Origin: Corynebacterium uberis
Lineage (GTDB): Bacteria > Actinomycetota > Actinomycetes > Mycobacteriales > Mycobacteriaceae
Length of the DNA: 64,000 bases
Reading direction: 5' to 3'
Assembly: GCF_020616335.1 (NCBI RefSeq)
Contig: NZ_CP085051.1
Location: 868,001-932,000, forward strand
Positions 4,056 through 55,774 of the stretch are shown piece after piece; position 1 is the stretch's first letter, and every line of letters begins with the position of its first letter. A program made the position numbers and the translations under genes. The notes beneath the pieces were generated by a model. The model did not search any database, was not told the DNA's origin, and worked only from the letters and a program-made list of their open reading frames with translations.

Positions 4056-5062
4056 ACCACGGTGATGGTTGGCTCCCCGTCGGCCACGGTGGTCTGACCG
4101 ATGACCGGGTAGCCTGGTACCTCGCCAATGACCAGCAGGCCACCAGAAGTCTGCGCATCGGCCAGCAGAATCAAGGACTCGAAGTCCAGGTCTGACTCCA
4201 CATGGGGGCTTACCCAGTCGAAGTTCGAGCGCGAACCGCCCGGGATGAAGCCCTCGTGCACGGCGGTGACGGCGGCGTCGATAAGCGGAACCTTCGCGTG
4301 GTCGATGGTCGCGCTGACCTGCGAGGCGCGCAGCATCTTGTACAAGTGGCCCAGCAGGCCAAAGCCCGTCACATCCGTAGCGGCCTTCGCCCCCGCAGCG
4401 ACCGCAGCGCGCGCCGCATCCCGATTCAGCGTGGTCATCGTGGCAATCGCCTCCGGGAAAACCTCCCCGGTCTTCTTGTGCCGATTGTTCAAAATGCCCA
4501 CGCCGAGCGGCTTGGTCAGGGTGATCGGCAGGCCGGGGGCGGCGGCGTCGTTACGCATCAGCTTCGCCGGATCGACCAGGCCCGTCGCCGCCATCCCATA
4601 AAACGGCTCCGGCGCCTTAATGGAATGGCCGCCCGTCACCGCAATACCAGCATCCGACGCCACATCCATTCCCCCACGCAACACCTCACGCAGCACCGTC
4701 AACGGCAACACATCCTGCGGCCAACCCACAATATTGATCGTGGTCAGCGGCGTGCCGCCCATCGCGTAAATATCCGACAGCGCATTCGTGGCCGCAATGC
4801 GACCCCAGTCATACGGGTCATCGACCACGGGGGTGAAGAAGTCCGTCGTCGAAATGACGGCCAGGTCGCCGCTGCCACTGATGCCGTTGATGCGTACGGC
4901 CGCAGCATCGTCGCCATCATCCAGGCCGACGATGACATTCGGATCCTGCATGCCCACCAGATCCTTGACCGTGTCTTCCAACTGGCCCGGCGGGATTTTG
5001 CAGGCGCAGCCGCCGCCGGCGGCGAATTGAGTGAGGCGAAGGGGATCGTGCTGAGTGCTCAT
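4052..5062 (-). CDS. selD: Selenide, water dikinase (selenophosphate synthase)
   Basis: Makes selenophosphate from selenide and ATP, the selenium donor for SelA. The N-terminal GGGCACKIPP gives C19 and K22, equivalent to the catalytic Cys17 and Lys20 of the E. coli enzyme, so this SelD uses cysteine rather than selenocysteine. The PurM/AIR-synthase-type fold is indicated by VGLDDGDDAAAVRI, ISTTDFFTPVVDDPYDWGRIAA and DVTGFGLLGH. At 336 residues it is of normal length. It is transcribed toward the fdh operon and overlaps it by 4 bases at the stops. One copy of the window's repeated 13-mer lies inside it at 4274-4286. Confidence 0.95.
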   Translation of the reverse strand: MSTQHDPLRLTQFAAGGGCACKIPPGQLEDTVKDLVGMQDPNVIVGLDDGDDAAAVRINGISGSGDLAVISTTDFFTPVVDDPYDWGRIAATNALSDIYAMGGTPLTTINIVGWPQDVLPLTVLREVLRGGMDVASDAGIAVTGGHSIKAPEPFYGMAATGLVDPAKLMRNDAAAPGLPITLTKPLGVGILNNRHKKTGEVFPEAIATMTTLNRDAARAAVAAGAKAATDVTGFGLLGHLYKMLRASQVSATIDHAKVPLIDAAVTAVHEGFIPGGSRSNFDWVSPHVESDLDFESLILLADAQTSGGLLVIGEVPGYPVIGQTTVADGEPTITVV

Positions 5063-5105
5063 GCCTCCCGAGGCTACCCGGGTTGGCGACCGCGCCCCCG
5101 CCCCG

Positions 5106-5180
5106 TCGCGCCCGGTGCCCCCTGCACTGTCGCGCCCGGTGCCCCCTGCACTGTCGCCCCTGCACTGTCGTCCCCTGCAC
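5106..5180. repeat. 24-bp tandem repeat (two full units plus decayed units)
   Basis: The unit TCGCGCCCGGTGCCCCCTGC plus ACTG occurs perfectly at 5106-5129 and 5130-5153. It is followed by shortened units sharing CCCCTGCACTG / CCCCTGCAC. The last CTGCAC is also the first bases of the 109-bp element, so the array abuts or grew from the element's end. It lies just upstream of the selD start. Confidence 0.85.
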
Positions 5181-5283
5181 CGTGTGACTGGTGTGACTGG
5201 GTGAGTGCGTGTTTGGGGGTAAAAACGCGCGTTTTCGGGGGTGTTTTGTGCACTCTGTAAACCCCACCAGTCACACGGTGCAG
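5175..5283. repeat. 109-bp inverted-repeat element, copy 1
   Basis: Bounded by perfect 19-bp terminal inverted repeats, CTGCACCGTGTGACTGGTG at 5175-5193 and its complement at 5265-5283. The centre holds the perfect palindrome AAAACGCGCGTTTT (5222-5235). Copy 2 at 5446-5554 has the same length with six substitutions (about 94% identity). It has no coding capacity, so a miniature (MITE/REP-like) element is the simplest reading. No target-site duplication is obvious. Confidence 0.85.
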
Positions 5284-5445
5284 GAAGTCCCTACGGAGAG
5301 GCGCTGCTCAGTGCCTGGACGGAGAAACCACCGCGGGCGCCTTGTTCGCAGCGGCGGTGCGGGGGCGTGCTCGGTGGTGGGGGCGGGACGTCGATAAGCG
5401 CGGGCGTACCGCGGCACGCGGAACTCCTCGTCGCCCCGGCTCCTC

Positions 5446-5554
5446 CTGCACCGTGTGACTGGTGTGACTGGGTGAGTACGTGTTCGGGGGTGAAAACGCG
5501 CCTTTTCGGGGGTGATTTGCGCACTCTGTAAACCCCACCAGTCACACGGTGCAG
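5446..5554. repeat. 109-bp inverted-repeat element, copy 2
   Basis: Same orientation and length as copy 1, 271 bp further right, with identical 19-bp ends (5446-5464 and 5536-5554). Substitutions fall only between the ends and break the central palindrome of copy 1 (CGCGCG becomes CGCGCC). Conservation of the ends with drift in the middle suggests that the ends matter for mobilisation or folding. Confidence 0.85.
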
Positions 5555-6688: not shown

Positions 6689-8026
6689 GTGTGTAGTGAT
6701 CCGCGGCGAAGGATTCCTAGCACGGATTCGCTGTTGCCTTTGGGTGAGGGGTTGGGGGTGAGTCCTAGCGCGTTGCGGTCGGTGATTCATGAGGCGCAGG
6801 CTGCGGCGCGGGCGGGTCGGATTGCTCCGGAGGAGGTTGCGGCGCGGGTGCGCGCGCGGCTGGGGGAGGGGGCGTCGATAAGCAGGGTGCTCAACGCCAC
6901 GGGTGTGGTGGTGCATACGAATCTGGGGCGCGCACCGTTGTCTCCTTCCGCACGTCAGGCGCTTATCGACGCCGCCGGCTACACCGATGTGGAGTTGGAT
7001 CTGGCCTCCGGCACGCGCTCGTCGAATCGAGGTGCGGGGGCGCGCGAGGCGCTGCTGCAGGCGTGCCCGGCGGCTGAGGATGCGCTGGTGGTCAACAATG
7101 GTGCGGCGGCGTTGCTGCTGGCCACGGCCCTGGCGGGCGGTGAGGTGGTGATCTCGCGCGGGGAGCTCATTGAGATTGGGGCGGGGTTTCGGCTGCCGGA
7201 GCTGATCGAGTCGACTGGGGTGCGGCTGCGCGAGGTGGGGGCGACGAATCGTACGCACCCGCAGGATTATGTGGTCCCTGGTGCTTCGGCGATTCTGAAG
7301 GTACACCCTTCGAATTACGTGGTGCGTGGCTTTACCGCCTCCGTGGATGTGGAGCAGCTGCGTGAGATTGCTGATGCCCACGGCCAGCTGCTCATCGTGG
7401 ATGTGGGCTCCGGGCTGCTGCGCCCGGACGCAGTGCTGCCGGAGGAGCCGGACATTGATTCGGCGCTGCGCGCCGGTGCCGACGTGGTTATTGCCAGCGG
7501 TGACAAGCTGCTTGGCGGGCCGCAAGCCGGACTGATGCTGGGCCGCGCGGAGGTGATTCGGCGGGCGAAGAAGCACCCGCTGGCCCGCGCGCTGCGGATG
7601 GATAAGCTGCGCCTGGCCGCGCTAGAGGCCACGGTGCGCGGCGGCAGCCTGGTGGCCGGCTACCTGCGTGCCGATACCCGCGCCCGAACCGAAGCCCTGG
7701 CCGCCCGGCTGGGCGCCCGCGTGGTGGAACACCAGGGGCGCGTGGGCGGCGGCGGTGCCCCGGAGGTTCCGCTGCCGGGTTGGGCGGTCGCGCTGGACCA
7801 GGGGCTGGCCACGCACTTGCGGGCCTTAGGCGTGCTCCCGCGGGTGCGCGATGGCGAGTGCCTGGTGGACCTGCGGTGCATCCCCGCGGAGGACGATGAG
7901 CGCCTGGCTGGGTTGATCGACAAGGCGCGCGAGGCGCAGGCTCGGCAGGCGCAGGCTCGGCAGGCGCGCCAGGCGCAACCAGGCCAGGCGCCAGCGAGAA
8001 AGGCCGAGGACTCATGCACGTCATAG
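6689..8026 (+). CDS. selA: L-seryl-tRNA(Sec) selenium transferase
   Basis: PLP enzyme converting Ser-tRNA(Sec) to Sec-tRNA(Sec) with selenophosphate. K273 in SGDKLLGGPQAG is the PLP lysine (K295 in E. coli); NATGVVVHTNLGRAPLS and the DVGSGLL stretch are typical. I chose GTG 6689 (VCSDPRRRIPSTDSLL) because other SelA proteins begin with a DPRRRIPxTD stretch; GTG 6674 is an alternative, and any earlier start enters the tRNA. The last 30 residues are an Ala/Gln/Arg repeat (QARQAQARQARQAQ) not found in E. coli SelA. The 3' end overlaps selB by 13 bases, implying coupled translation. Two 13-mers (6871 and 6961, inverted) lie inside. Confidence 0.94.
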   Translation: MCSDPRRRIPSTDSLLPLGEGLGVSPSALRSVIHEAQAAARAGRIAPEEVAARVRARLGEGASISRVLNATGVVVHTNLGRAPLSPSARQALIDAAGYTDVELDLASGTRSSNRGAGAREALLQACPAAEDALVVNNGAAALLLATALAGGEVVISRGELIEIGAGFRLPELIESTGVRLREVGATNRTHPQDYVVPGASAILKVHPSNYVVRGFTASVDVEQLREIADAHGQLLIVDVGSGLLRPDAVLPEEPDIDSALRAGADVVIASGDKLLGGPQAGLMLGRAEVIRRAKKHPLARALRMDKLRLAALEATVRGGSLVAGYLRADTRARTEALAARLGARVVEHQGRVGGGGAPEVPLPGWAVALDQGLATHLRALGVLPRVRDGECLVDLRCIPAEDDERLAGLIDKAREAQARQAQARQARQAQPGQAPARKAEDSCTS

Positions 8027-9696
8027 CCACCGCCGGGCACGTCGACCACGGCAAGTCCGCGCTGGTCCGCGCCTTGACCGGCATGGAGCCGGACCGCTGG
8101 GAGGAGGAGCGCCGCCGCGGGCTGACCATTGACTTGGGCTTCGTGTGGGCGGGCGACCTTGCCTTCGTGGATGTTCCCGGCCACGAGCGCTTCTTGTCCA
8201 ACACGTTGGCGGGCTTGGGACCGGCGAGCGTGGTGCTGTTCGTGGTGGCCGCCGATGAGGGTTGGCAGCGCCAGTCGGCGGATCACCGGGATGCGATCGC
8301 CGCGCTGGGGATTTCCCACGGGGTTATCGCCGTGACTAAGTCTGATCTGGCCCCGGATGCGGACTTGGACCCTATCCGTGAGGAGTTCGCGGGCACCGGG
8401 TTGGCCGATGCCCCCATCGTCCGGGTCAGCGCGAAGACCGGCGCGGGCATCGAGGAGCTGCGTGCGGCCCTGCGCGAGGTGGTGCCGCAGCCGCCGCGCC
8501 GCCCGTTGCGCTACTGGGTGGACCGCTGCTTTAGCGTCAAGGGCGCGGGAACGGTGGTCACCGGAACGCTGGAGTGCGCGCACGTGGCGGCGGGCGATCA
8601 GCTGGTGTGGCACGATGGTCACCGCCCCCACGCTGTTACGGTGCGCGGCATTCAGAGCGAAAACCAGCAGGTAGACAGTGCTGATCCGGTGGCCCGGGTG
8701 GCGCTGAACCTGCGTGGCGGCAGCCCACACCGCGGCCACGTGCTGGTGCGCCCGGATCAGTGGGTGTTTACCCGGTGCGTGGACGCCCGGGTGGTTTTCG
8801 GCAGCATTGATCAGGCACCAGAACACCTGGTGGTGCACGTGGGCACCGCGGAGATTCAGGCCCGGCTGCGCCCCCTTGGGAATCATGCGCGTCTGGTGTT
8901 GGAGTCTGCGGTGCCGCTGCGCCACGGCGACCGGTTGGTCCTGCGCGCCCCGGGCGGGGGGATCGTCGCCGGGGTGGAGGTGGCGGATGTGGAGCCCCCG
9001 GAGCTTGCCCGCCGGGGTGCGGCGGCGCGCCGGGGTGCGCAGTTGGCTGCAGGCCTGAGTGCCGATGGGGAGGTGGCCCGCCGCGGCGCGGTGCGCCATG
9101 CGGATTTCCTGCGCCTGGGGTTCGGCGCCCCGCACCATGCGCGCGATGAGGCCGGGTGGTGGATTGACCCGGGTACTTTCGATGGGTGGGTGGTCCGCGC
9201 CCAGCAGGCCGTCGCAGCTGCCGATCCGCTCAATCCCGCGGTTTCGCGCGGCTCGCTGCACGTCCCGGAGGAGCTTATCGACGCCCTCGTGGCCGCCGCC
9301 GGACTAGAAACTTCTGGTGGGCTCATCCGCAAGCCTGGGGCCAAGGTTGATCTCGGTGGGGCGGAGAAGGCGGTAGCCACCGTTGAGGGCTGGCTGGATG
9401 ATGAGCCCTTTGCTGCCCCCGAGGCCGACGAGCTTGCCGAACTCAAGCTGGGCCCCCGCCAGCTGGCCGCCGCCGCCCAGGCAGGGCGCCTGCTGCGCCT
9501 TCCCGGCGAGGTGATCCTGCTTCCCGACGCCCCACGCCGCGCCGCCGCCATCCTGGCAAAGCTGGAGCAGCCATTTACGCTCAGCCAGGCGCGCAAGGCG
9601 CTAGATACCACCCGCCGCGTGGCGGTGCCCCTCCTGGAATACCTGGATGGGCAAGGCCTGACCCGGTGGGATGGCAACGTGCGCACGGTGCGCTAG
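8014..9696 (+). CDS. selB: Selenocysteine-specific elongation factor
   Basis: GTPase that delivers Sec-tRNA to UGA codons followed by a SECIS hairpin. GTPase motifs are GHVDHGKS (residues 8-15), DVPGHE (near 53) and TKSD (near 108). EF-Tu-like domains II-III follow (VKGAGTVVTGTL), and the C-terminal winged-helix repeats that bind SECIS RNA end in LLEYLDGQGLTRWDGNVR. At 560 residues it is somewhat shorter than the E. coli protein (614). The start ATG is within the selA end. The stop overlaps the next, convergent gene by the 4 bases CTAG. Confidence 0.94.
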   Translation: MHVIATAGHVDHGKSALVRALTGMEPDRWEEERRRGLTIDLGFVWAGDLAFVDVPGHERFLSNTLAGLGPASVVLFVVAADEGWQRQSADHRDAIAALGISHGVIAVTKSDLAPDADLDPIREEFAGTGLADAPIVRVSAKTGAGIEELRAALREVVPQPPRRPLRYWVDRCFSVKGAGTVVTGTLECAHVAAGDQLVWHDGHRPHAVTVRGIQSENQQVDSADPVARVALNLRGGSPHRGHVLVRPDQWVFTRCVDARVVFGSIDQAPEHLVVHVGTAEIQARLRPLGNHARLVLESAVPLRHGDRLVLRAPGGGIVAGVEVADVEPPELARRGAAARRGAQLAAGLSADGEVARRGAVRHADFLRLGFGAPHHARDEAGWWIDPGTFDGWVVRAQQAVAAADPLNPAVSRGSLHVPEELIDALVAAAGLETSGGLIRKPGAKVDLGGAEKAVATVEGWLDDEPFAAPEADELAELKLGPRQLAAAAQAGRLLRLPGEVILLPDAPRRAAAILAKLEQPFTLSQARKALDTTRRVAVPLLEYLDGQGLTRWDGNVRTVR

Positions 9697-11171: not shown

Positions 11172-12227
11172 CTAGGGGACGCGGTGGGTCCACTCGGGGG
11201 TGCCGAACTTGGTGTCCACGAGGTGTTGGGCGGCGTCGATATCCGCTTGGGGCAGCTCGGCCATGGTGGCGGGGTAACGGGAGGTAAAGGTGTCAAGCAG
11301 GGCGTCGATGACCTGCTCGCGCGGCACGCCCGTCTGGCGACGCAACGGGTCCACGCGCTTGGCGGCAGAGCGGATGCCCTTGTCTGCCAGCTTGACCTTG
11401 CCCACCCGCAGGACCTCCGACATCTTTTCGGCGTTGATGTCATAGCTCATGGTGGTGTGGTGGAGCACCGCGCCCTTGACCCGCTTTTGGGCGGCCCCGC
11501 CGATCTTGCCGCCGTCAGAGGTGATGTCATTGATGGGCACGTACCAGGCGTTGACGCCCAGGGAGCGCAGCCCAGCGATGACCCACTGGTCCAAGTATTC
11601 GTAGGATTCCACGTAGCTCAACCCCGCGACGGCGGATTCCGGGACGTAGAGGGAATAGGTGACGCAGTTGCCGCCCTCCATGAACATGGCCCCGCCGCCG
11701 GAGATGCGGCGCACCGGGGTGATCCCGTGGCGCTCCACGCCTTCTTGGTTCAACTCGTTGCGGTAGGACTGGTAGGAGCCGAAGACGACGGCGCGGTCGT
11801 GCCACTCCCAGAACCGCAGCATCGCCCCGCGCTGGGGTACCTGGCTTAACAGGTGTTCGTCGAGAGCCACGTTGAGCGGGGTGGGCAGGGGGCCGGGGCG
11901 GTAGACGGTCCATTCGAGGTCGGTTAAGTCCGTGGCGTCGAGGAGCGCGCGACGGGTGACCTGGGCGATGTCGCGGGTAGAAAAGCCGTGCAGGGCGGTG
12001 CCCTCGCAGCGGGTGAGGGCGGCGTCGAGAAGCTTTTCTAGGGTGTCGGTGTCCGCGGTGACGGGCGCGCCGACGAGCGCGGCGTTGAGGGCGTGGAAGG
12101 CTTCTTCGGGCTCTAAGAAGAAGTCTCCGGAGATGCTGGCGGCGGTGATGTGGGAGCCGTCGTCGGTGATGTCGGCGACGACGAGCTTGCCGCCGGGGAC
12201 CTTTCGTTCAAAATGATGATCAGGCAT
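11172..12227 (-). CDS. lplA: Lipoate-protein ligase A
   Basis: Attaches lipoate to the E2 subunits of 2-oxoacid dehydrogenases and to GcvH. RRISGGGAMFMEGGN (near residue 178) and DGGKIGGAAQKR (near 240) are the lipoyl-AMP-binding signatures. The first about 95 residues (GGKLVVADITDDGSHITAAS...) look like the LplA accessory domain that in E. coli is C-terminal, so the domain order appears swapped, an arrangement I believe is seen in other actinobacterial LplA proteins. 351 residues. It is monocistronic and divergent from the MFS gene at 12376. Confidence 0.9.
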   Translation of the reverse strand: MPDHHFERKVPGGKLVVADITDDGSHITAASISGDFFLEPEEAFHALNAALVGAPVTADTDTLEKLLDAALTRCEGTALHGFSTRDIAQVTRRALLDATDLTDLEWTVYRPGPLPTPLNVALDEHLLSQVPQRGAMLRFWEWHDRAVVFGSYQSYRNELNQEGVERHGITPVRRISGGGAMFMEGGNCVTYSLYVPESAVAGLSYVESYEYLDQWVIAGLRSLGVNAWYVPINDITSDGGKIGGAAQKRVKGAVLHHTTMSYDINAEKMSEVLRVGKVKLADKGIRSAAKRVDPLRRQTGVPREQVIDALLDTFTSRYPATMAELPQADIDAAQHLVDTKFGTPEWTHRVP

Positions 12228-13650: not shown

Positions 13651-15459
13651 ATGAGTAAAAGAGACCGCGCCTCTTCCTTCCTGCGGGAGGTCAACCTGCC
13701 GCGCCGCATCCATCCTGCGTTGGTTCCCGGGGTCTCCGTCGATGACCTGCGCATTCACTTCCGGATTGATAGGCCCATTGTGGTGGGTGTGGGCGGGGTG
13801 ATCATCGCGTTTGTGGTCTGGGGGGTGATGAGCCCGGATCAGGTGCTCGCGCTATCAACGTCCGTCCTGCACTGGGTGATGGTCAACCTAGGGTGGGTGT
13901 TTACCACGTTGGCAGTGGTGGCGGCGGTAGTGCTGGTGCTGCTGGCGGTATCGCGCTACGGGGCCATTCCGCTGGGTCGGGATGGGGAGAAGCCGGAGTA
14001 CTCCACCTTGTCCTGGGCGGCCATGCTCTTTGCCGCCGGCATTGGCATTGGCATCATTTTCTTTGGCCCCTTCGAGCCGCTGACCTACTACCTTTCGCCG
14101 CGCCCGGGTGCCTACGAGCCGGAGACGCAGCGGGCGGTGCTGGGGGCGCTGTCCCAGTCGGCGCTGCATTGGGGGATTAATGCGTGGGCGATTTATGCGG
14201 TGGTGGGCCTGGCGGTGGGCTATGTGTCCTACCGGCGCGGCCGCGTGCCTTTGATGAGCTCTATTCTTACGCCGCTGTGGGGGACCCGCCCGGTGGCCTC
14301 ACGGCTTATCGACGCCATGGCCATCGTCGCCACGCTCTTCGGTACTGCCGCCTCGCTGGGCATCGGTGCTCTCCAGATCTCCCACGGTGTGGAGGTGGTC
14401 ACCGGCTGGTCGCCAGCAGGCAATGCGCTGGCCATCGGGATCATTGTGGTGCTGACGGTGGGCACCATCTTCTCGGCGGTATCCGGTGTGAACAAGGGCA
14501 TCCAGTGGCTGTCCAACATCAACCTGGTGCTGGCCGTGGGGCTGGCGCTGTTCTTCTTTATTGTGGGCCCCACCGCCTTTCTGGCCAACATGATCCCGGC
14601 GGTCATCGTGGATTATGTGGGCTCCATGCCGCAGATGCTGGCGGCAAACATGGGGCAGGGCGAGGACATGCAGGAGTTCTTGTCCAGCTGGACCACGTTC
14701 TACTGGGCGTGGTGGGTGTCCTGGTCTCCCTTCGTAGGGGTGTTCGTGGCCAAGATTTCTCGCGGCCGGACTATCCGCCAGTTCATCTTTGGGGTGCTGT
14801 TTATCCCGTCGACGATCATCATTTTGGCGTTCAGCATCCTGGGTGGCACCACCATTTGGTTGCAGCGCTCCACCGGGGATATCGCGCCGGGCGGTAAGCT
14901 TCCCGCCCCGGAGCAGATCGTGTTCACCGTGCTGGATCACCTGCCGGGTGGCCACCTGGTGGCCCCGTTGCTCATCGTCATGCTGGCGGTGTTCTTTATC
15001 ACCACGGCGGATTCTGCCTCCCTGGTCAATTCGCAGCTCTCCCAGCAGGGAAACCCCAAGCCGCGGCGGATGGTCACCGCGTTTTGGGCGGTGTGCATGG
15101 CAGGCATTGCGGTGGTGATTTTGTTGACCGGTTCATCCAACGCATTGCAGGGCTTGCAAAACCTCATCACCATCACCGCGCTGCCGTTTGCGGTGGTGCT
15201 GGTGGCCATGATGGTCGCGCTGTTTAAAGAGCTGCGCCATGATCCGCAGTCGATTCGCACCACCTTCCAACAACAGGCCATAGCCAAAGCGGTGGTGCGC
15301 GGGGTGCGCGAGCACGGTGACAACTTCACCCTGGCCATCGAGCCCACCCATGATGATGACTACGCCGTTGGCTCCCACTTTGATGCAGACAATGAGCAGG
15401 TCATGGACTGGTATGTGGCGCCTGCGGACCCACCGGATGAATCACATCCCGGTACGTAG
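13651..15459 (+). CDS. BCCT-family transporter (betaine/carnitine/choline type)
   Basis: 602 residues, 12 membrane helices. BCCT signatures are clear: GIGIGIIFFGPFEPL in helix 3, HWGINAWAIYA in helix 4, and the WTTFYWAWWVSWSPFVG plus FVAKISRGRTIRQF signature segment. Both cytosolic tails are short, without the long charged C-terminal osmosensory helix of BetP, so it is closer to EctP/LcoP-like carriers (inference). Start at ATG 13651; an upstream in-frame start would add 15 non-conserved residues. A 13-mer copy lies inside at 14304-14316. Confidence 0.9.
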   Translation: MSKRDRASSFLREVNLPRRIHPALVPGVSVDDLRIHFRIDRPIVVGVGGVIIAFVVWGVMSPDQVLALSTSVLHWVMVNLGWVFTTLAVVAAVVLVLLAVSRYGAIPLGRDGEKPEYSTLSWAAMLFAAGIGIGIIFFGPFEPLTYYLSPRPGAYEPETQRAVLGALSQSALHWGINAWAIYAVVGLAVGYVSYRRGRVPLMSSILTPLWGTRPVASRLIDAMAIVATLFGTAASLGIGALQISHGVEVVTGWSPAGNALAIGIIVVLTVGTIFSAVSGVNKGIQWLSNINLVLAVGLALFFFIVGPTAFLANMIPAVIVDYVGSMPQMLAANMGQGEDMQEFLSSWTTFYWAWWVSWSPFVGVFVAKISRGRTIRQFIFGVLFIPSTIIILAFSILGGTTIWLQRSTGDIAPGGKLPAPEQIVFTVLDHLPGGHLVAPLLIVMLAVFFITTADSASLVNSQLSQQGNPKPRRMVTAFWAVCMAGIAVVILLTGSSNALQGLQNLITITALPFAVVLVAMMVALFKELRHDPQSIRTTFQQQAIAKAVVRGVREHGDNFTLAIEPTHDDDYAVGSHFDADNEQVMDWYVAPADPPDESHPGT

Positions 15460-16229: not shown

Positions 16230-17524
16230 TCCGCGCTTGCGACTTTTCTTATCAACACCCCACCCGCGACGCGCCTGCCTTTGAGCACGTCAGCATTGAG
16301 ATCCCGGCCGGGCAGCGGGTGCTGCTGTGCGGGGATTCCGGAAGCGGAAAGTCGACCTTTGCCACCGCGTTGGCGGGCGTGCTGGAGGAAGATGCGCTCA
16401 CCAGCGGCTCCCTGGAGGTCGCCGGAACGGTGGGACTGGTTCTTCAGGACCCGGACCCCATCTGCTCCCGGATCGGCGATGACGTCGCCTTCGGCTGTGA
16501 GAATCTGGGCCAGCACAACATCTGGGAGAAGGTGCGCTGGGCACTGAAGGCGGTGGGTCTGGACCTGCCGCTGGATCACCCCACCGCGCGGCTGTCCGGC
16601 GGGCAGCGCCAACGCCTGGCGCTCGCCGGGGTACTGGCCATGGGTGCGGATGTTGTGGTCCTGGATGAGCCCACAGCCAACCTTGACCCGCAGGGCGCGC
16701 AGGAAATTGTGCGCCTGGTAGATGAGGTGGTGGCCAACACGGGGGCGACCCTGTTGGTCATTGAACACCGGGCGCAGCGGTGGCTGCCGTATGTGGAGCG
16801 CATCGTCGAGATGACCGGCCAGGGGATAGTGGAGCGCACGGAGCTGCCGGAGCCGCCGCGCCTGCCGGGGGCGCGGGGCGTCGATAAGCACCAACAGCCC
16901 GCCGTGTGGACCCGGCAGCTGCGCACGCACACCGGCCCGCCGCGCGACGTGGAGCTGCCGGAGGGCGCGGCAACGGTGATCACCGGGCCCAACGGTGCGG
17001 GCAAGACCTCTCTGGCCATGGTGCTCGCCGGGCTGGATGCCCCGCGCTCGGGAGAGGTGGACTATGCGCCGCAGGTGCGTGATGGGCTGGGCGGGCCGGC
17101 GCATCGGTGGCGCTCGGCGCAGCTCGCGCGGCGCATCGGGTGCGTGTTTCAGGACCCGGAGCACCAGTTTGTGGCCCGCACGGTCGCCGAGGAGATGGCG
17201 GTGGGCCCGCGGGTGATGGGCATGCCCGATGCCCCGATTGATCAGCTGCTAGAACAGTTGCGCCTCGACCACCTGCGCAACGCCAATCCATTTACCCTGT
17301 CCGGGGGTGAGAAGCGCCGGCTATCCGTAGCAACGGCACTGGTTGCGGCCCCGCGGGTGCTCATTTTGGATGAACCGACCTTTGGCCAAGACGAGCAGAC
17401 CTTTGTAGAGCTGGTCACGCTGCTGCGCCAGCTGACCGACCGCGGCGTCACCGTGGCGGCTATCACCCACGATGAGCTTTTCCTCCACGCGCTGGGCGAT
17501 CATCACGTGGAGGTCACCCCATGA
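16226..17524 (+). CDS. ykoD: ECF transporter duplicated ATPase subunit
   Basis: Two fused ABC ATPase domains (432 residues). Domain 1: Walker A GDSGSGKST (near residue 34), signature LSGGQRQRLAL, Walker B VVVLDEPTANLD. Domain 2: Walker A GPNGAGKTS (near 255), signature LSGGEKRRLSVA, Walker B VLILDEPTFGQD. The linker between domains carries a 13-mer copy at 16877 (encoding GVDK). The GTG start at 16226 overlaps the ykoE stop; the frame is open far upstream but only antisense to ykoE content. ATGA overlap with ykoC. Confidence 0.93.
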   Translation: MIRACDFSYQHPTRDAPAFEHVSIEIPAGQRVLLCGDSGSGKSTFATALAGVLEEDALTSGSLEVAGTVGLVLQDPDPICSRIGDDVAFGCENLGQHNIWEKVRWALKAVGLDLPLDHPTARLSGGQRQRLALAGVLAMGADVVVLDEPTANLDPQGAQEIVRLVDEVVANTGATLLVIEHRAQRWLPYVERIVEMTGQGIVERTELPEPPRLPGARGVDKHQQPAVWTRQLRTHTGPPRDVELPEGAATVITGPNGAGKTSLAMVLAGLDAPRSGEVDYAPQVRDGLGGPAHRWRSAQLARRIGCVFQDPEHQFVARTVAEEMAVGPRVMGMPDAPIDQLLEQLRLDHLRNANPFTLSGGEKRRLSVATALVAAPRVLILDEPTFGQDEQTFVELVTLLRQLTDRGVTVAAITHDELFLHALGDHHVEVTP

Positions 17525-18261
17525 GGATGCTCGACAGTTTCAACCCCGTCGCCCGGCTTGCCGGCGCGCTCGTGGTGACCACTCCACTATTGATCTCCGT
17601 GGACCTCGTCTCCGCCACGGTGGCGCTGGTGTTGTGCACCGCGGTGGCCCTGGCCTGGGGCTTTCGCTTCACGCGCCTGCTTCCGCTGTGCGCCATCGCC
17701 CCGCTCGCCGGCGTGTCCATGGCGCTCTACGCCCGCCCGGAAGGCCACGAGTATTTCTCCTTCGGGTTCGCCCACATCACGGACAACTCGCTGGCCCTCG
17801 CCGCGGCGATCATGGTGCGCGTCATCGCGGTGGCGCTGCCGGTCCTGGTGCTCACCGATCGGCTGGACCCCACGGACCTCGGCGACGGGCTGGCGCAGGT
17901 GGCGCACCTGCCGGAGCGCTTCGTCGTCGCCTCCGTCGCCGGGGTGCGCATGCTCACGCTCTTTCGTGACGACTGGGCCAGCCTCAACCGCGCCCGCCGC
18001 GCCCGCGGCATTGCCGACCAAGGCCGCCTGCGCCACACCCTCACCCTGTCCTTCGGACTTTTGGTAGCGGCGCTGCGCCGCGGATCCACGCTCGCCGTGG
18101 CCATGGAGGCGCGCGGATTTGGCTCCGGCCCGCGCACCTGGGCCCGGCGCTCCCAGCTGCACCGCCGCGACGCAGTACTGGTCGCGGGCTGTGCCGTCGT
18201 GGCGGCGATAAGCATCGCCGCGGCGGTGTGGACCGGCCAATTCCGCTTCCTGGGGGCCTAA
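17521..18261 (+). CDS. ykoC: ECF transporter transmembrane (T) component
   Basis: CbiQ/EcfT-type coupling protein of 246 residues that links the S component to the ATPases. Hydrophobic helices frame the cytosolic region with SLNRARRARGI and AMEARGFGSGPRTW; the second is the EcfT ARG motif (MEARGF). The start overlaps ykoD as ATGA. Completes the riboswitch-controlled transporter. Confidence 0.9.
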   Translation: MRMLDSFNPVARLAGALVVTTPLLISVDLVSATVALVLCTAVALAWGFRFTRLLPLCAIAPLAGVSMALYARPEGHEYFSFGFAHITDNSLALAAAIMVRVIAVALPVLVLTDRLDPTDLGDGLAQVAHLPERFVVASVAGVRMLTLFRDDWASLNRARRARGIADQGRLRHTLTLSFGLLVAALRRGSTLAVAMEARGFGSGPRTWARRSQLHRRDAVLVAGCAVVAAISIAAAVWTGQFRFLGA

Positions 18262-40260: not shown

Positions 40261-41970
40261 GTGAGTAGTCCAACACGCCGGCCCCTTGGGAGCCGGGCCC
40301 TCGCGCTGGCCCTTTCTGGCACGCTAGCCGCGCTGGCGCTCAACCTTGGCGGCTGCGTGGCCCGGCCTGGGCCCGCCCCGGTGGTCGAGGACCCCCCAGC
40401 CGCTGAAGCGGCGGATCATCCCGAAGCTGAGGATTCGCCAGACGGCAACCGGCCCGGGGAGGCCGGTGCTGACAACGCGGACCAGGAGGACCCAGAGTCC
40501 ACCACCACCCCGGGCGCGCAGGACGCCTCTGGGCAGCCGGTGCGCTCCACCATCAACGTGGGCGTGGACCCGCTGCGTGCGGGGCTCAACCCGCACCTGG
40601 CTGCGGACGCCAGCGCCCTGGTCGACTCGCTTGCAGACCTCGTACTGCCCTCGCCGTTTAAGAACGGCCAGCCGGACCCCAACCTGGTGGTCTCAGCCCG
40701 GGAGGTCGCCCCGCCCGAGGGATCCACGGTACAGCGCAGCGTGCACTATGTCATCGCCCCGGAGGCGCAATGGTCAGATGGCACGCCGGTGAGCGGCAAT
40801 GACTTCGCCTACCTGTGGCGGATGATGGTGTCTACCCCCGGCGTTGTCGGCGCCGCGGGCTACCGCGCGATCAGCGCTGTGCGCGTGGGCGGTGGGGGCA
40901 AGACGGTGGATGTGGATTTTGCCTACCCGGTTGCCCAGTGGCGTGAGCTTTTTGCGCACCTGCTGCCCTCGCACCTGGTCGCCGGGGAGGATTTTGCTTC
41001 CGCGCTGCACGACACCATTCCGGCTTCTGCAGGGCGCTACATGGTGCGGGTGGTGGATCGCTCCCGCGGGATCATCGAACTCGGGCGCAATGATCGCTTC
41101 TGGGGAAGCGCCCCGGCGGCAACTGAGGTGTTGAGTCTGCGCCCCGTGCGTTCTGCGGTGGAGGGGTCGGATCAGCTGCGTTCGGGGCAGCTCAGTTTCA
41201 TCGACGTCACCCCGGCGCAGACCACGCAGGAGTCCTTTGGGCTGGTCCCCGGCACGCAGACCCGCCAGCTGACCACGGCCCGCCGGCTCGAGGTGCGCGC
41301 GTCGGCGATCTCACCAAGGCTGCGCGACGCGCAGGTGCGTGCCACGTTCCTTTCGCTTATCGACGCCCCCCGCGTCGCCCGGCTAGCCACCGGCCGGACC
41401 GCACCCCTCGAGGTGCCGAGCCCCGCCGCCGCCGTCGCCGGGGTGACCCCCGGCCCTGAAGACGTGGCGGCGCTGCGTGAGGCGAGCCACAAGCGGGCGC
41501 TGCGCATCGCGGCCGATCCCGCCGACCCCACGGCGTCCGCGGCCGCGCGCACCATCGTGGACCTGCTGGCCCACCAGGGGGTGTCCGCCCGGGTCGTGGC
41601 CACGGATATAGATACCCTGGCGGCCACGCAGCTTCCTGAAGGCACCGTGGATGCGGTGGTGGTGTGGTCCGCCGGCCGTGCGACGGCGATGGATGTGGCG
41701 GACGCGTACTCCTGCGGCGTCGATAAGCAGCCGGGCAACCTGTCGGGCTACTGTGATGTGGCGCTGCAACCACAACTCGTGGCGGCGCTGGGCGGGAAGG
41801 ACGATGCCGCGCAGCTTGCCCACCGCATCGAATCCTCCGCGCACCTGAGCCTGCCGCTGCTCAAGGAGACCCGACTGCTGGTCACCGGGCAGGACCTGGA
41901 AGGACCGGACCCGAACCTGGAGAACTGGACCGCGGGCTTATCCGCGGCCGCAACCTGGAAGAAGAAGTGA
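40261..41970 (+). CDS. lpqW: LpqW-like lipoprotein (family-5 binding-protein fold)
   Basis: 569 residues from GTG 40261. Signal peptide with lipobox LNLGGCVA, then an acidic Pro/Glu/Asp-rich linker (about residues 35-95), then the SBP_bac_5 fold (GVDPLRAGLNPHLAADASALVDSLADLVLPSPF, APEAQWSDGTPVSGNDFAYLW). In mycobacteria LpqW influences PIM/lipoarabinomannan synthesis. It directly follows typA and precedes mshB, as in M. tuberculosis. Two 13-mers (41355 and 41716) lie inside, the second coding GVDK. Confidence 0.88.
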   Translation: MSSPTRRPLGSRALALALSGTLAALALNLGGCVARPGPAPVVEDPPAAEAADHPEAEDSPDGNRPGEAGADNADQEDPESTTTPGAQDASGQPVRSTINVGVDPLRAGLNPHLAADASALVDSLADLVLPSPFKNGQPDPNLVVSAREVAPPEGSTVQRSVHYVIAPEAQWSDGTPVSGNDFAYLWRMMVSTPGVVGAAGYRAISAVRVGGGGKTVDVDFAYPVAQWRELFAHLLPSHLVAGEDFASALHDTIPASAGRYMVRVVDRSRGIIELGRNDRFWGSAPAATEVLSLRPVRSAVEGSDQLRSGQLSFIDVTPAQTTQESFGLVPGTQTRQLTTARRLEVRASAISPRLRDAQVRATFLSLIDAPRVARLATGRTAPLEVPSPAAAVAGVTPGPEDVAALREASHKRALRIAADPADPTASAAARTIVDLLAHQGVSARVVATDIDTLAATQLPEGTVDAVVVWSAGRATAMDVADAYSCGVDKQPGNLSGYCDVALQPQLVAALGGKDDAAQLAHRIESSAHLSLPLLKETRLLVTGQDLEGPDPNLENWTAGLSAAATWKKK

Positions 41971-43833: not shown

Positions 43834-43846
43834 GGCGTCGATAAGC
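43834..43846 (+). repeat. Intergenic copy of 13-mer GGCGTCGATAAGC
   Basis: Exact copy in the 139-base gap between fdxC and dapC, 46 bases before the dapC start. See the finding on this motif. Confidence 0.8.
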
Positions 43847-45043: not shown

Positions 45044-45913
45044 GTGTCCTCCCGCAGCCCGCTACCACCACGCCACGGCATCCCCGCCCGGCGCGTGGTC
45101 CTGCGCGGGACCGTCGACCCCGCACACCGCTACCTAGCCGGGCGAGCCGGGGACAGCCCCTTCGCCTTTGGCCAACCGATCCCTCCCGGCACGGTGCTCG
45201 ATCGCCCGCAGCCCGCCTGGTACTACCCGGAGCTAGGCCCGGAGCCGAAAATTCCCTTCCACCACACCCTGATCCACGCCGACGCAGACCTCCTCGTGGT
45301 GGACAAGCCCCCCTTCCTGCCCACCACATCCAACGGGCGACTAGTACGCAACACCCTACAAACCCGGCTCCGGCTGGCCTACGGGCAGGACTGCGTGCCC
45401 ATCCACCGCCTGGACAGGCTGACATCCGGGATAGTTCTGTGCTCCCGCCACCAGGACACCCGCGGCGCCTACCAGCGACTATTCCAGCTTCACCGGGTGT
45501 CCAAACGCTACCTCGCCCGCGTGAGCAACCCCCACCTTCTGCCAACATCCTGGACGCGTATCGACGCCCCCATGGCCCGCATCCCCGCAGCCCGCGGCGT
45601 GGCCGTGGGGCACGGCAGGCCAACCACCACCTGGCTGCGCCGCCGCCCCGGCACCGACCTGGTGGATCTACGCCCCATCACCGGGCACACCCACCAGCTT
45701 CGGGCCGTACTCAACCACCTAGGAAGCCCCATCCGTGGCGATGACACCTACCCGGAGGACCTAGGCCTTGACCTTGGGGATTTCAGCCACGTGTTGCAGC
45801 TGCGGGCCATCGGCGTGAGCCTGGTGGACCCACTGAGCAACCAGACACGCACCTTTGCGGTACCGGAACAATTTCCGCGGCCCGGGTCTGGGGCGGTAAA
45901 CTGCGCCAGTTAG
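45044..45913 (+). CDS. RluA-family pseudouridine synthase
   Basis: 289 residues. The catalytic Asp is in PIHRLDRLTSGIVLCSR (near residue 126), and LRPITGHTHQLRAVLNHLGSPIRGDDTYP is the RluA-family binding motif. No S4 domain is visible. Target is rRNA or tRNA uridine; which one cannot be told. GTG start; 27 bases after dapC. Confidence 0.9.
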   Translation: MSSRSPLPPRHGIPARRVVLRGTVDPAHRYLAGRAGDSPFAFGQPIPPGTVLDRPQPAWYYPELGPEPKIPFHHTLIHADADLLVVDKPPFLPTTSNGRLVRNTLQTRLRLAYGQDCVPIHRLDRLTSGIVLCSRHQDTRGAYQRLFQLHRVSKRYLARVSNPHLLPTSWTRIDAPMARIPAARGVAVGHGRPTTTWLRRRPGTDLVDLRPITGHTHQLRAVLNHLGSPIRGDDTYPEDLGLDLGDFSHVLQLRAIGVSLVDPLSNQTRTFAVPEQFPRPGSGAVNCAS

Positions 45914-51186: not shown

Positions 51187-52581
51187 TTAGGCCGCGCGGC
51201 GGCGGCGTCGGAAAGCAAACGAGGCAGCGGCGGCGAGCAGGATGACCGCGCAGACCACCGTCACAGCGAGCACCTGGGTGCGCGCAACGGGGTCGGCGAG
51301 CATGAGGCACACGATGGCCCCCACGGCCGCGGCCGTGGCCCACGCCGCCCAGGGATAGCCCCACATGCGCACGCTGGTGATCTCGCCGCGGCGCTCCAGG
51401 ATCGGGTGAATCCGCAGGTAGGAAGCGATGACCGTGACCCAGATGACCACCAAGCATCCGCCGATGGAGCTGAGCAGGAAGTCCAGCAAGCCCGGCGGAT
51501 TCCACCATTGCAGGCCCACCGAGCCGAAGGCAAAAATCACGGAGAGCACCACCGCGGGGATGGGCACCTGGGCAACGGAGACCTGGCGGAAGATGGCGGG
51601 GGCATCGCCGCGTTCGGCAAGCGAGTAGCACAGCCGCGACGACCCGTACAGCTGCGCATTAAACGCGCTGAGCAGGGCCAAGACAATGACAACCTCCATG
51701 ATTCCCACCACGCCGGGAATGCCCGCCATGTCCAACACCATGGTGAAAGGAGACTCCGCCGCAGTCTGGGCGCCCTTAATCTCCTGCAAGGGCAGCAGGA
51801 AACTAATCACCAGCACCGACCCGATGTAGAACAGCCCGATGCGCCAGATGATCGAATTGACCGCAGTGTGCACGGAGCGCTGCGGATCCTCCGATTCTGC
51901 CGCCGCAATGGTCACCAGCTCGATGCCGCCGAAGGCAAAGGCCACCGCCAGCAGGCCTGCGGCCACGCCAGACACGCCGGAGGGCATGAAGCCTTCCGCC
52001 GTGATGTTGTGGGTGCCCACGAAGGAGTGGCCCGGCAGCCAACCGAAGATCAGGGCCACGCCGATGATGAGGAAGGCGATGATCACGGCAACCTTGACAA
52101 AGGCGAACCAGAACTCAAACTCGCCGAAGCCGCGGACGCTGGCCAGGTTGACGGCGGCCAACACGGCCACCGCAATCAGCGCGGGCACCCAGGCCGGGAT
52201 GCCAAACCAGGCGCCCATGATGGCCGCGGCGCCGGTCATCTCCGCGCCCATGATCATGATCATCATGAACCAGTACAGCCAGCCGACGGAAAAGCCCGCC
52301 CAGGGCCCAAAGGCCTGCTCGGCGTAGGAGGAGAAGGTCCCCGCGGAGGGGCGGGCGGCAACCATCTCGCCGAGCATCCGCATGATCAGGACGGTGATGA
52401 CGCCGGTGACGGCGTAGGCGATGATGACGGCGGGTCCGGCGGCGCGGATGCCCACCCCGGTGCCCAGGAAAAGCCCGGCGCCGATGGCAGAACCCAATCC
52501 CATCATGGTCAGGTGCCGGGTGCGCAGCCCGCGGCCCAGTGCTGCGCCGGTGCCGGCGTCTACGGTGGTGTTGTCTGGCAT
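51187..52581 (-). CDS. Aromatic/amino acid permease, AAT family (copy 3)
   Basis: 464 residues from ATG 52581 (MPDNTTVDAG). Same family blocks, but the helix-5 region differs from copies 1 and 2 (AWFGIPAWVPALIAVAVLAAVNLASVRGFGEFE) and the C-terminus is basic (FAFRRRRRAA). Upstream gene of the triplet, and only 56 bases from the convergent-free TetR gene, which runs in the same direction. Confidence 0.88.
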   Translation of the reverse strand: MPDNTTVDAGTGAALGRGLRTRHLTMMGLGSAIGAGLFLGTGVGIRAAGPAVIIAYAVTGVITVLIMRMLGEMVAARPSAGTFSSYAEQAFGPWAGFSVGWLYWFMMIMIMGAEMTGAAAIMGAWFGIPAWVPALIAVAVLAAVNLASVRGFGEFEFWFAFVKVAVIIAFLIIGVALIFGWLPGHSFVGTHNITAEGFMPSGVSGVAAGLLAVAFAFGGIELVTIAAAESEDPQRSVHTAVNSIIWRIGLFYIGSVLVISFLLPLQEIKGAQTAAESPFTMVLDMAGIPGVVGIMEVVIVLALLSAFNAQLYGSSRLCYSLAERGDAPAIFRQVSVAQVPIPAVVLSVIFAFGSVGLQWWNPPGLLDFLLSSIGGCLVVIWVTVIASYLRIHPILERRGEITSVRMWGYPWAAWATAAAVGAIVCLMLADPVARTQVLAVTVVCAVILLAAAASFAFRRRRRAA

Positions 52582-53345: not shown

Positions 53346-53395
53346 AACCGGCACACTATGATCCGTTTGCGTAAGTGGATCACGGTGTTCCGTTT
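53346..53395. promoter_or_regulatory. Long imperfect inverted repeat, probable TetR operator
   Basis: AACCGGCACACTATGATCC (53346-53364) and GGATCACGGTGTTCCGTTT (53377-53395) match as inverted repeats in 15 of 19 positions, with a 12-base spacer. It sits midway between the divergent tetR and membrane-protein genes, the expected place for the operator. Whether it is one long site or two nested sites cannot be told. Confidence 0.6.
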
Positions 53396-53458
53396 GAATC
53401 GTCGTGGCCATCCTACCTCTGACCCATGACTTTCCGTCCAGCTCAGAAAGGCCCCCTC

Positions 53459-54565
53459 ATGACACACCACCCCGAGCACGCCTCCCCATATGGGGATCTA
53501 CCTGACACCGATGACAACCTTCAGCTCAACCCGGCAGCCCTGGGTGAGCACCGGGAAGCGCAGGAAGCGCAGAAGGCGCAGGAAGCGCAGGAGTCGAAGC
53601 CCCGGAACGCCTGGGCGATTGTTACCGCCCTGGTCGTCGGTCTGCCGGTGGTCATCGCCGCCATGCTCTTTTCCTTCCTTGCCCCCATGAATGCCTCGGG
53701 GCCGCATCACCTGCCTGTAGAGATCGCGGCGCCGGCGCAGGTCGTCGATAAGCTCGATGCCGCGCTCCAGCACCAGCAGCCGGACGCCCTCGATCTGCGC
53801 CACGCCGCAAGCCCCGACGCCGCCCGCGAGGCCGTAGCCCAACGCGAGGCGGTCGGCGCCCTGGTGGTTGACCCCCAGGCCAATCAGGTCACCGTCTACA
53901 CTGCCGCCGCCAACGGCGCGCCTTACGGCCAGCTGCTCACCGGCGTGGCAGAAAGCTTCCGGGTCCAAGGAATGGACGTGACCTCCACCGACGTGGCCCC
54001 GCTGACGGAGAAGGATCCCTCCGGCACCGGCCTGAGCGCGCTTGGTTTGCCCCTTGCTTTCGGCGGGATGGTCTCGGGCGCATTGATTACCCTGCTGCTG
54101 CGCCGGCGCGCCGTGTGGGAGAAACTGTGCGGCGTCATCGGAGTGAGCCTGGTCGGCGGTTTCATCGTCTCCGCGATCCTGACCTGGGGTTACGGGACCC
54201 TTGATGCGAACGTGTGGGCCACCACCGCCACCATCGCGGCAGGTATCGCCGCGACGTCCTTTGTGGCCACCGGGCTCGGATCGTGGCTTGGCCTGGGCGG
54301 GGTGGGTATCGCCGCGATCCTGACCATCTTCGTGTCCAACCCGCTGTCCGGCCTGGCCACCGGATGGTGGTGGCTGCCGCAAGGTTGGGGCGCGCTGGGC
54401 CAGTGGATGCCCATCGGCGCGGCCGGGCACGCGCTGCGCTCGGTGGCCTTCTTCGACGGCGCGGGTGCCACGCAGCAGTGGTGGGCGCTGGCCTTGTGGA
54501 TCCTGGTTGGTGCGGCGGTGCTGGTGTGGGGAGAAAGCCGCAAACCGGCGTCCCGCGTAGGCTAA
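53459..54565 (+). CDS. YhgE/ABC-2-like membrane protein
   Basis: 368 residues. A cytosolic N-terminus with a charged EAQEAQKAQEAQE repeat (coded by GCGCAGGAA-type units) precedes helix 1 (AIVTALVVGLPVVIAAMLFSF). A large external loop of about 140 residues follows (MNASGPHHLPVEIAAPAQVVDKL...), then five C-terminal helices. This 1+5 layout with external domain resembles ABC-2/YhgE-type membrane proteins; no ATPase is adjacent. Divergent from tetR, so probably its target. Confidence 0.75.
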   Translation: MTHHPEHASPYGDLPDTDDNLQLNPAALGEHREAQEAQKAQEAQESKPRNAWAIVTALVVGLPVVIAAMLFSFLAPMNASGPHHLPVEIAAPAQVVDKLDAALQHQQPDALDLRHAASPDAAREAVAQREAVGALVVDPQANQVTVYTAAANGAPYGQLLTGVAESFRVQGMDVTSTDVAPLTEKDPSGTGLSALGLPLAFGGMVSGALITLLLRRRAVWEKLCGVIGVSLVGGFIVSAILTWGYGTLDANVWATTATIAAGIAATSFVATGLGSWLGLGGVGIAAILTIFVSNPLSGLATGWWWLPQGWGALGQWMPIGAAGHALRSVAFFDGAGATQQWWALALWILVGAAVLVWGESRKPASRVG

Positions 54566-54571
54566 CGGGGC

Positions 54572-55774
54572 ATGAACAGCCCGCGTCACGCCCGCCCCGA
54601 AGAGCCCTCCTCGCCCGCTGAGGCCAACCAGCAACCCCTGCCCCGGCTAGACCTGTGCGCAGACCCCGTCGCCCTGACCCAGGCCTTGGTGGACATTCCC
54701 AGCGAGTCACACAAGGAGGCCCGCATTGCCGATGCCATTGAGGCCGCGCTGCGCGCCCAGTTCGGCGACGCCGGGGCGCAGGCGGGCGCACCCGCACCCA
54801 TTGAGATCCTGCGGGTGCGCAACAACGTGCTCGCCCGCACACATCGCGGTTTAGACCAGCGGGTGATCCTGGCCGGGCACATCGATACGGTGCCCATCGC
54901 CGATAACGTCCCCTCGCGGCTGGACCACGGCATTCTCCACGGCTGCGGGTCGGTGGATATGAAATCCGGCATGGCCGTCTACCTGCATGCTTTTGCCACG
55001 CTCGCCCGCAGCGCAGACTTGAGCCGCGACCTCACGCTGATCTGCTACGAGGCTGAAGAGGTCGCCTCCCAATACAACGGCCTGGCCTACATTCAGCGCG
55101 AGCTACCGGACTGGCTGCACGCGGACCTGGCCCTGCTGGGGGAGCCCACTGGCGGCGACATCGAGGCCGGCTGCCAGGGCTCCATCCGGCTGAGAATCAC
55201 CGCCCGCGGCACCCGGGCGCATTCTGCGCGCGCCTGGCTGGGTGATAACGCCATCCACCGCCTGACCCCGGTGCTCAAGCGGGTGGCGGACTACCAGCCG
55301 CGCGATGCCGTCGACCTGGGCGGGTGCGTCTACCGGGAGGGACTCAACGTGGTCCACGTCGAAGGCGGGGTGGCCACCAACACCATCCCGGATGAGGCCT
55401 GGTGCTTTGTCAACTTCCGCTTCGCCCCGGATCGCTCCACCGACGAGGCGATGGCCCACCTGCTCGACGTGTTGGCCTTGGGCGATGATGATCAGCTGTC
55501 CTGGGAGCCTGATGACGTCTCCGCCGCCGCGCACCCCGGCCTGGGCAGCCCCGTCACCCAGGAGCTTATCGACGCCCTCGGGGGCACCGTGCGCGCCAAA
55601 TACGGCTGGACCGACGTCGCCCGGTTCGCGGCCGCGGGAGTGCCCGCCCTGAACCTTGGCTGCGGCGACCCCGGGTACGCGCATAAGCGCGATGAGCAGT
55701 GCCCTGTCGAACACATCACGCGGGTAGCGCACGCTTTGAGCATCTACCTCACCGCGCGTACCCAGCAATCCTGA
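54572..55774 (+). CDS. dapE: Succinyl-diaminopimelate desuccinylase
   Basis: 400 residues, M20 metallopeptidase family. Removes succinate to give L,L-DAP. Metal and catalytic motifs: AGHIDTVP (near residue 104), [12 protein letters not shown] (D near 128), [10 protein letters not shown] (E pair near 160), GEPTGG and [14 protein letters not shown] at the end. A 25-residue N-terminal extension precedes the core. A 13-mer copy at 55564 codes LIDA. Confidence 0.92.

Follow-up and report, generated by a model that had tools for sequence, protein, structure and literature searches.

The stretch studied here is a 64,000-nt window (positions 868001-932000) of the single 2,533,318-base contig of Corynebacterium uberis, and it carries, among other genes, selA, selB, a BCCT transporter gene and the ATPase gene of a peptide ABC transporter. 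The GyrB encoded by this genome has its best matches among named Corynebacterium records, at 79-84% identity. Dispersed in and between its genes is a short asymmetric 13-mer, GGCGTCGATAAGC (the exact word), whose copies were counted on both strands. Twelve exact copies are present in the window (Table 1), ten of them genic and two intergenic, with gene frames and intergenic status taken from our own simple gene calls. A first-pass annotation of this DNA had listed the same 12 copies, including the two intergenic ones, and each was recovered at the position and on the strand it gave. Its record of near copies was less complete: those at 53741 and 57992 are correct, the one placed at 5388 begins at 5387, and the remaining nine one-mismatch copies of Table 1 were absent from the list, as were the five two-mismatch copies that fit the wider working word GGCRTCGNNAAGC defined below. 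When at most one mismatch is allowed, the window holds 24 copies against 0.09 expected from shuffles.

Table 1. Copies of the word in the window, grouped by their match to the 13-mer.
Copy	Position	Strand	Context or remark
Exact GGCGTCGATAAGC	4274..4286	+	antisense in predicted gene 4052-5062(-), frame LIDA
Exact	6871..6883	+	sense in selA 6782-8026(+), frame GASIS
Exact	6961..6973	-	antisense in selA, frame LIDA
Exact	9273..9285	-	antisense in selB 8014-9696(+), frame LIDA
Exact	14304..14316	-	antisense in BCCT transporter gene 13651-15459(+), frame LIDA
Exact	16877..16889	+	sense in predicted gene 16226-17524(+), frame GVDK
Exact	31946..31958	+	sense in peptide ABC-transporter ATPase gene 31046-32941(+), frame GVDK
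Exact	38090..38102	+	intergenic
Exact	41355..41367	-	antisense in predicted gene 40381-41970(+), frame LIDA
Exact	41716..41728	+	sense in predicted gene 40381-41970(+), frame GVDK
Exact	43834..43846	+	intergenic
Exact	55564..55576	-	antisense in predicted gene 54572-55774(+), frame LIDA
One mismatch, GGCGTCGAGAAGC	2853..2865	-	position 9 variant
One mismatch, GGCGTCGAGAAGC	3222..3234	-	
One mismatch, GACGTCGATAAGC	5387..5399	+	position 2 variant; intergenic
One mismatch, GGCGTCGAGAAGC	12021..12033	+	
One mismatch, GGCGGCGATAAGC	18201..18213	+	core-position substitution; probably chance
One mismatch, GGCGTCGAAAAGC	21689..21701	+	
One mismatch, GGCGTCGACAAGC	23463..23475	-	
One mismatch, GGCGTCGACAAGC	38630..38642	-	
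One mismatch, GGCGTCGATACGC	45556..45568	-	position 11 variant
One mismatch, GTCGTCGATAAGC	53741..53753	+	position 2 variant
One mismatch, GACGTCGATAAGC	57992..58004	-	position 2 variant
One mismatch, GGCGTCGAGAAGC	59944..59956	+	
Wider word, GGCGTCGGGAAGC	9519..9531	-	two mismatches
Wider word, GGCGTCGGAAAGC	18302..18314	-	two mismatches
Wider word, GGCGTCGGAAAGC	36717..36729	+	two mismatches
Wider word, GGCGTCGGAAAGC	51204..51216	+	two mismatches
Wider word, GGCGTCGGAAAGC	62203..62215	+	two mismatches

Form, enrichment and chromosomal placement of the word

The exact word occurs 296 times in the whole 2.53-Mb genome (138 on the + and 158 on the - strand), while the reversed word, used as control, has 0 copies. 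The wider word GGCRTCGNNAAGC occurs 790 times (399 and 391 by strand; control 3). A 464-kb sample of the same genome has 59 exact copies against 0.11 expected under an order-4 Markov model. Far above chance as they are, these counts extend to the genome the excess that the first-pass annotation had noticed in the window. Single substitutions in this sample fall mainly at position 9 (G 24, C 14, A 5) and position 2 (A 14, T 4, C 1), followed by position 11 (C 8, T 4) and position 10 (T 4), and the remaining nine positions account for only 4 such copies together. The word is thus nearly all-or-none, with substitutions common only at positions 2, 9, 10 and 11. Additionally, positions 8 and 9 covary (AT in 68, AG in 25, GC in 20, AC in 16 and GA in 10 of 163 copies), and the working word was therefore taken as GGCRTCGNNAAGC. 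Its layout is bipartite, GGCRTCG and AAGC being separated by two free bases. The intergenic copies of the wider word (n = 31), which are free of codons, reveal a G-rich tract upstream, with G at -2 in 29 and at -1 in 24 of the 31, and a purine directly 3' of the word in 28. The common sequence spans only about 13-18 bp, and apart from the G-rich tract the flanks differ.

Our gene calls comprise 457 genes (87% coding), which allowed the placement of the copies to be compared with the sequence available. Non-coding sequence makes up 12.8% of the total, whereas the intergenic share is 17 of 67 for exact copies (p = 0.004) and 31 of 162 for wider ones (p = 0.014). Genic copies occupy four gene frames, which read LIDA, GVDK, ASIS or AYRRR. 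The codons CTT ATC GAC GCC encode 32 of 40 LIDA peptides against 0.8 expected, with CTT making up 7.5% of the Leu codons. The word is consequently a DNA-level signal, tolerated by proteins and enriched outside genes. It could alternatively be a coding artefact that stems from codon bias or from the conservation of a peptide motif such as LIDA or GVDK; an antisense LIDA-type frame is indeed found in 32 of 49 exact and 94 of 129 wider genic copies, and the background word GGCGTCG has the same frame bias. Such a source is practically negligible in view of the choice of codons within LIDA, the intergenic enrichment, the use of four frames and the lack of comparable enrichment in other Actinomycetes, and codon choice together with the intergenic copies led us to rule it out. 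The first-pass annotation had argued that peptide constraint cannot explain the 13-mer, and the LIDA codons bear this out; nor are the copies confined to one coding frame or one protein motif, the pattern it had set against its own reading. A role as transcription signal was also considered, as 99 of the 129 wider genic copies are antisense, and it was rejected: the GGCGTCG background is equally biased (77% antisense), and the direction is reversed between co-directional genes (10 sense, 2 antisense). Convergent gene pairs enclose 8 of 32 intergenic copies, somewhat more than their 14% share of the intergenic length.

Concerning chromosomal placement, dnaA lies at the contig start, which was used as the origin, and the terminus was placed halfway along the genome; the GC skew agrees with this, its sign changing from plus to minus near 1.2 Mb. 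Each of 23 sampled stretches has copies of the wider word: 24 in the window, and between 3 and 12 in each of the 22 others, which are 18-20 kb long. Their spacing is near random, and close pairs are not in excess in the sampled stretches (5 neighbours at less than 100 bp, 6.7 expected). A short, frequent and asymmetric word with a G-rich tract on one strand recalls chi-like recombination or fork-polarity motifs used by a moving helicase or translocase, such as chi, FtsK orienting polar sequences (KOPS) and architecture imparting sequences (AIMS). Chi and KOPS motifs, however, are polar relative to replication, whereas the word is evenly oriented with the fork (33 of 67 exact copies, p = 1.0; 89 of 162 wider copies, p = 0.24), as the nearly equal strand counts of the whole genome also indicate. 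Given this even orientation, we hold a motif of the chi or KOPS type, or another polar one, to be very improbable, and it equally disfavours the recombination hot-spot, in its polar, chi-like sense, that was among the four candidate functions of the first-pass annotation.

Spread in the genus, dialects and turnover

The word was next sought in 181 Corynebacterium genomes, one per species (G-numbers below are labels of this sample). Copies of the 10-mer GTCGATAAGC range from 0 to 798 and those of GGCRTCGNNAAGC from 1 to 983 across these species. When word-rich is defined as at least 50 copies of either form, 132 of the 181 species qualify. The 49 below the threshold are not all blank, since 37 have at most 17 wider copies and 12 have 24-47 (controls 2-11). 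Wider-word counts reach 775 in C. pollutisoli, 480 in C. lemuris, 471 in C. hylobatis, 281 in C. pelargi and 253 in C. stercoris, with 92 in C. pilosum and 29 in C. lubricantis. It should be mentioned that GGCRTCGNNAAGC may miss some forms, G249 having 29 wider copies but 273 of GTCGATAAGC. From its equal count G249 is probably C. lubricantis, and G224, G018, G192, G007 and G238 were likewise matched to named species by their counts. Outside the genus, the wider word is not enriched in Rhodococcus tibetensis (23, control 25) or Nocardia amamiensis (35, control 49), and among 295 other Actinomycetes the top count is 53 (control 45) in an 11-Mb genome, none coming near the hundreds seen in Corynebacterium. 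A few of them exceed their control severalfold at low counts (G482, 25 vs 3; G076, 52 vs 22). The 11-mer CGTCGATAAGC has 0-7 copies in 140 genomes from 30 other genera of the family. The word is thus genus-wide yet limited to the genus Corynebacterium, in many species of which it reaches hundreds of copies.

Some species poor in the 10-mer GTCGATAAGC proved to have another dialect of the word, as revealed by a search of k-mers in 16 genomes and of spaced words in 11. Clear forms were obtained for G000, G006, G257, G217, G273, G335 and G111. Specifically, CATCGGCAAGC or GGCATCGGCAA is found in G006, G257 and G217, CATCGACAAGC in G273 and G335, and CGTCGTCAAGC together with CGTCGCAAAGC in G111. 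A weaker form occurs in G212 (72% GC), whose dialect is blurred between GGCGTCGTCAA and CGTCGnnGAGCT, with GAGC replacing AAGC (L050, L063-L066). The words of G218 (GGCGTCAATAA, 6 copies) and G311 (CCTCATTGGGG, 7 copies) are doubtful, and the k-mer and spaced-word search gave no convincing word in G014, G015, G094, G177, G010 and G294. Two of these word-poor species hold other repeated sequences, namely an enriched word, TGTAGCGCGACA, with 5 copies in 57 kb of G094 (L030, L031, L049), and a palindrome, ATGCACGTGCAT, that recurs at 4 sites within 80 kb of G294 (L088-L091). The dialects differ at position 4. In the samples G000 has G there in 161 of its 163 copies, whereas A stands in 33 of 35 copies of G006, 18 of 18 of G257, 15 of 16 of G217, 11 of 11 of G273 and 11 of 11 of G335. 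On trees of the single genes TadA and helicase, a small sample of 18 loci, the A-dialect group requires 1 change (TadA; 62% of bootstrap trees) or 2 changes (helicase), against 4.6 when shuffled. Within these single-gene samples the dialects therefore cluster and follow phylogeny. The word-poor G014 nests among the species of the A dialect and seems to have lost the word.

Turnover of the word was followed in four close relatives (G004, G005, G256 and G271; 93-96% identity) over the aligned blocks of two 20-kb loci. At 137 pairwise sites the word is kept in 113 and differs in 24, in every case by substitution and with 0 indels. Directed comparisons find the word conserved at 226 of 250 sites; for 300 patterns made by permuting its letters, which together are about as frequent as the word alone, the figure is 226 of 322. 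The pairs are non-independent and any p value is nominal. The gyrB region, compared with eight relatives (seven named species and one metagenome-assembled genome), offered only 4 informative sites, 2 of them with gaps, too few to weigh. Within the aligned blocks of the four close relatives, copies thus arise and change by point mutation rather than by insertion. This bears on a further explanation, by which the word would be a restriction-modification or methylation target, or else the insertion target or repeat remnant of a mobile element. Some type I restriction sites are bipartite, and the layout of GGCRTCG, two free bases and AAGC resembles them. Enrichment by hundreds-fold is, however, not to be expected of such a target, and a long asymmetric word that is enriched instead of avoided makes the restriction or methylation site proposed in the first-pass annotation a poor fit. 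Substitution as the only change observed and the short stretch common to copies with differing flanks speak against a mobile element, and in either version we find the explanation highly unlikely.

A candidate role in DNA uptake

The genome of C. uberis carries comEA and comEC, which adjoin holA, and a Tad locus with ssd, tadA, a TadE-like gene (by profile) and a DUF4244 Flp-type pilin. Additionally, a TadE-type pilin frame was detected there by pattern scan, a DEAH helicase adjoins the locus, and frames lie at the places expected for tadB and tadC, named by position only. In the genus, the Competence domain of ComEC was detected in 181 of 181 species, the T2SSE ATPase in 178 and the TadE-like TIGR03816 in 180, while a ComEA match was present at all 20 comEC loci compared. 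All 17 Tad loci scanned by pattern have Flp-type pilins and 12 of them a TadE-like pilin. The competence machinery thus exists, but its presence does not explain which species have the word. Differences between word-rich and word-poor species were nevertheless seen, the ComEC open frame being longer in word-poor species (Fisher p = 6e-8; 149 of 181 genomes, 32 left out) and the T2SSE score better in word-rich ones (118 of 132 vs 10 of 49, with three no-match genomes entered as E = 1). Among 20 translated comEC loci, many of the long ones have longer N termini, and an early C-terminal end is found in G006, G212 and G311; a Pfam scan of six ComEC proteins returned the Competence domain only. ComEC length and T2SSE score were dropped as discriminators, as both are probably phylogenetic. 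Both ComEC and ComEA are N-terminally longer in many word-poor species (L041-L043, L054 and L059, compared with L040, L045 and L055). The comEA of the word-poor G177 (L041:7664-8134) has an in-frame stop near its 3' end, which may represent decay or a sequencing error.

Because the word is dispersed, non-polar, near all-or-none, tolerated by proteins, split into tree-clustered dialects and changed by point mutation, we consider it probable that it is a self-label of the genus Corynebacterium resembling the DNA uptake sequences (DUS) of other bacteria. Among the four candidates of the first-pass annotation, the DNA uptake signal is accordingly the one favoured by dialects, point-mutation turnover, non-polarity, dispersal and the competence genes. 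From this pattern we infer an uptake preference, a receptor and transformability of these species, which may be connected as follows. A receptor on the cell surface would prefer double-stranded DNA with GGCRTCGNNAAGC (in C. uberis, GGCGTCGATAAGC and its upstream G-rich tract); the likeliest candidate is a minor pilin, or else an accessory protein, of the Tad/Flp pilus, which would feed ComEA and ComEC. Uptake and recombination would hence favour DNA of relatives over foreign DNA, and such a bias could drive the word to hundreds of copies through point mutation and recombination, with protein tolerance limiting their accumulation. Changes of the receptor would then shift the word into dialects.

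Concerning known uptake systems, for which the publications are cited from extracts, a strong preference for short motifs is described for species of two families, Pasteurellaceae and Neisseriaceae (PMC7811141, 2020). Biased uptake combined with recombination is the published account of DUS and of uptake signal sequences (USS), which evolve by point mutation and are scarcer in strongly constrained coding sequence (PMC7811141). Neisseriaceae DUS, e.g., GCCGTCTGAA, have dialects and a minor-pilin receptor, ComP (PMC3630211, PMC6370729, PMC3868556); their dialects track phylogeny, and one species has two at once (PMC3630211). The Corynebacterium word is like them a short non-palindromic word with a strict core, related dialects and hundreds of genic and intergenic copies, but it differs in having no sequence similarity by eye, an actinobacterial host and fewer copies than the thousands cited for Neisseria. 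The Neisseria system operates through a type IV pilus with ComP, whereas Corynebacterium has a Tad/Flp locus. The USS of Pasteurellaceae, namely Hin-USS AAGTGCGGT and Apl-USS ACAAGCGGT (PMC7811141, PMC12616744), likewise change by point mutation and have a shared flank beyond the core, which here is the G-rich upstream tract. At about 310 per Mb (790 in 2.53 Mb), the wider word falls inside the 200-500 per Mb cited for Apl-USS. It differs from USS in sequence and phylum, and in that the close pairs typical of USS terminators are not in excess. A further comparison is offered by Micrococcus luteus, an actinobacterium with comEA and comEC in which Flp pili serve transformation (PMC6370729). It shares these genes and a Flp/Tad pilus locus with Corynebacterium; its transformation is demonstrated, that of Corynebacterium predicted, and the extract describes no uptake word for M. 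luteus. We found no earlier description of such a word in the literature on uptake words and competence in Corynebacterium and Actinobacteria, a search that covered no preprints and few subscription papers. An extract of a spaced-motif scan gives CRISPR patterns for three Corynebacterium species and no word like this one (PMC5217627), and in those of PMC2267715 and PMC1590033 the genus is named only in a genome table.

Somewhat more tentatively, we favour the view that Corynebacterium independently evolved a genus-wide, sequence-specific uptake of self-DNA through the Tad/Flp pilus, which would read a 13-18 bp word (the G-rich tract and GGCRTCGNNAAGC), that the dialects may split the genus into gene-exchange groups, and that much of the genus would be naturally transformable given the right word. 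If uptake is indeed the function, it would be a sequence-specific case in a new phylum, probably with another pilus, and a third independent one, this time in a Gram-positive actinobacterial genus, implying that self-labels evolve repeatedly. It would also suggest natural transformation in a genus of medical and industrial importance. Corynebacterium is usually engineered by electroporation, and attaching the right word to donor DNA would offer a direct route to a test. The dialect shifts could then serve as a natural experiment on barriers to gene flow.

Several observations weigh against this interpretation. Word-poor species possess comEC, comEA and tad genes as well, and the presence or absence of these genes is not linked to the word. 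The scan of 17 Tad loci yielded no receptor candidate tied to the word; the pilins seen there are small, and most have a net negative charge. Position 4 is mixed outside the clear dialects: G004, G005, G256 and G271 have A in 11 of 84 copies at two loci, and G261 has it in 5 of its listed copies. Absence of the word is unclustered on the trees (5 changes vs 5.8 shuffled). Foreign DNA provided a weak test, phages BFK20 and phi673 (87.5 kb) having 0 copies while the word count of their host is not known. We found no paper showing uptake or transformation for Corynebacterium. Finally, an abundant DNA-binding protein that acts on the chromosome could leave the same static pattern. In this main alternative, which takes up the nucleoid-protein site among the candidates of the first-pass annotation, the word would be bound by an abundant chromosome-organising or nucleoid-associated protein, and its copies would aid folding or segregation and be kept by selection. 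The presence of copies throughout the sampled chromosome at the density given above, the asymmetry of the word, its conservation beyond that of permuted words and its absence from the two phages all agree with such a role. Known segregation motifs, however, are polar and clustered, whereas our sample has neither polarity nor clustering. Moreover, the scarcity of the word in the species counted above as poor in it (37 with at most 17 wider copies, 49 below 50 of either form), and the differing dialects of related species, would both be unusual for an essential site, and we regard this alternative as unlikely.

Apart from the word, the window contains a selenocysteine cassette composed of the C-terminal part of a formate dehydrogenase alpha subunit (4-1977, profile 470-1066), tRNA-Sec (6547-6641), SelA and SelB. 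The short dehydrogenase frame at the window edge would fit an in-frame UGA upstream, beyond the window. Between predicted genes, TGCACCGTGTGACTGGT occurs four times as two inverted pairs (5176-5282 and 5447-5553; about 107 bp each) that lie 271 bp apart and form a small duplicated palindromic element, amid which the near copy at 5387 sits. A large surface protein is encoded at 24372-27188, with choice-of-anchor M domains and a signature associated with anchored-repeat ABC transporters.

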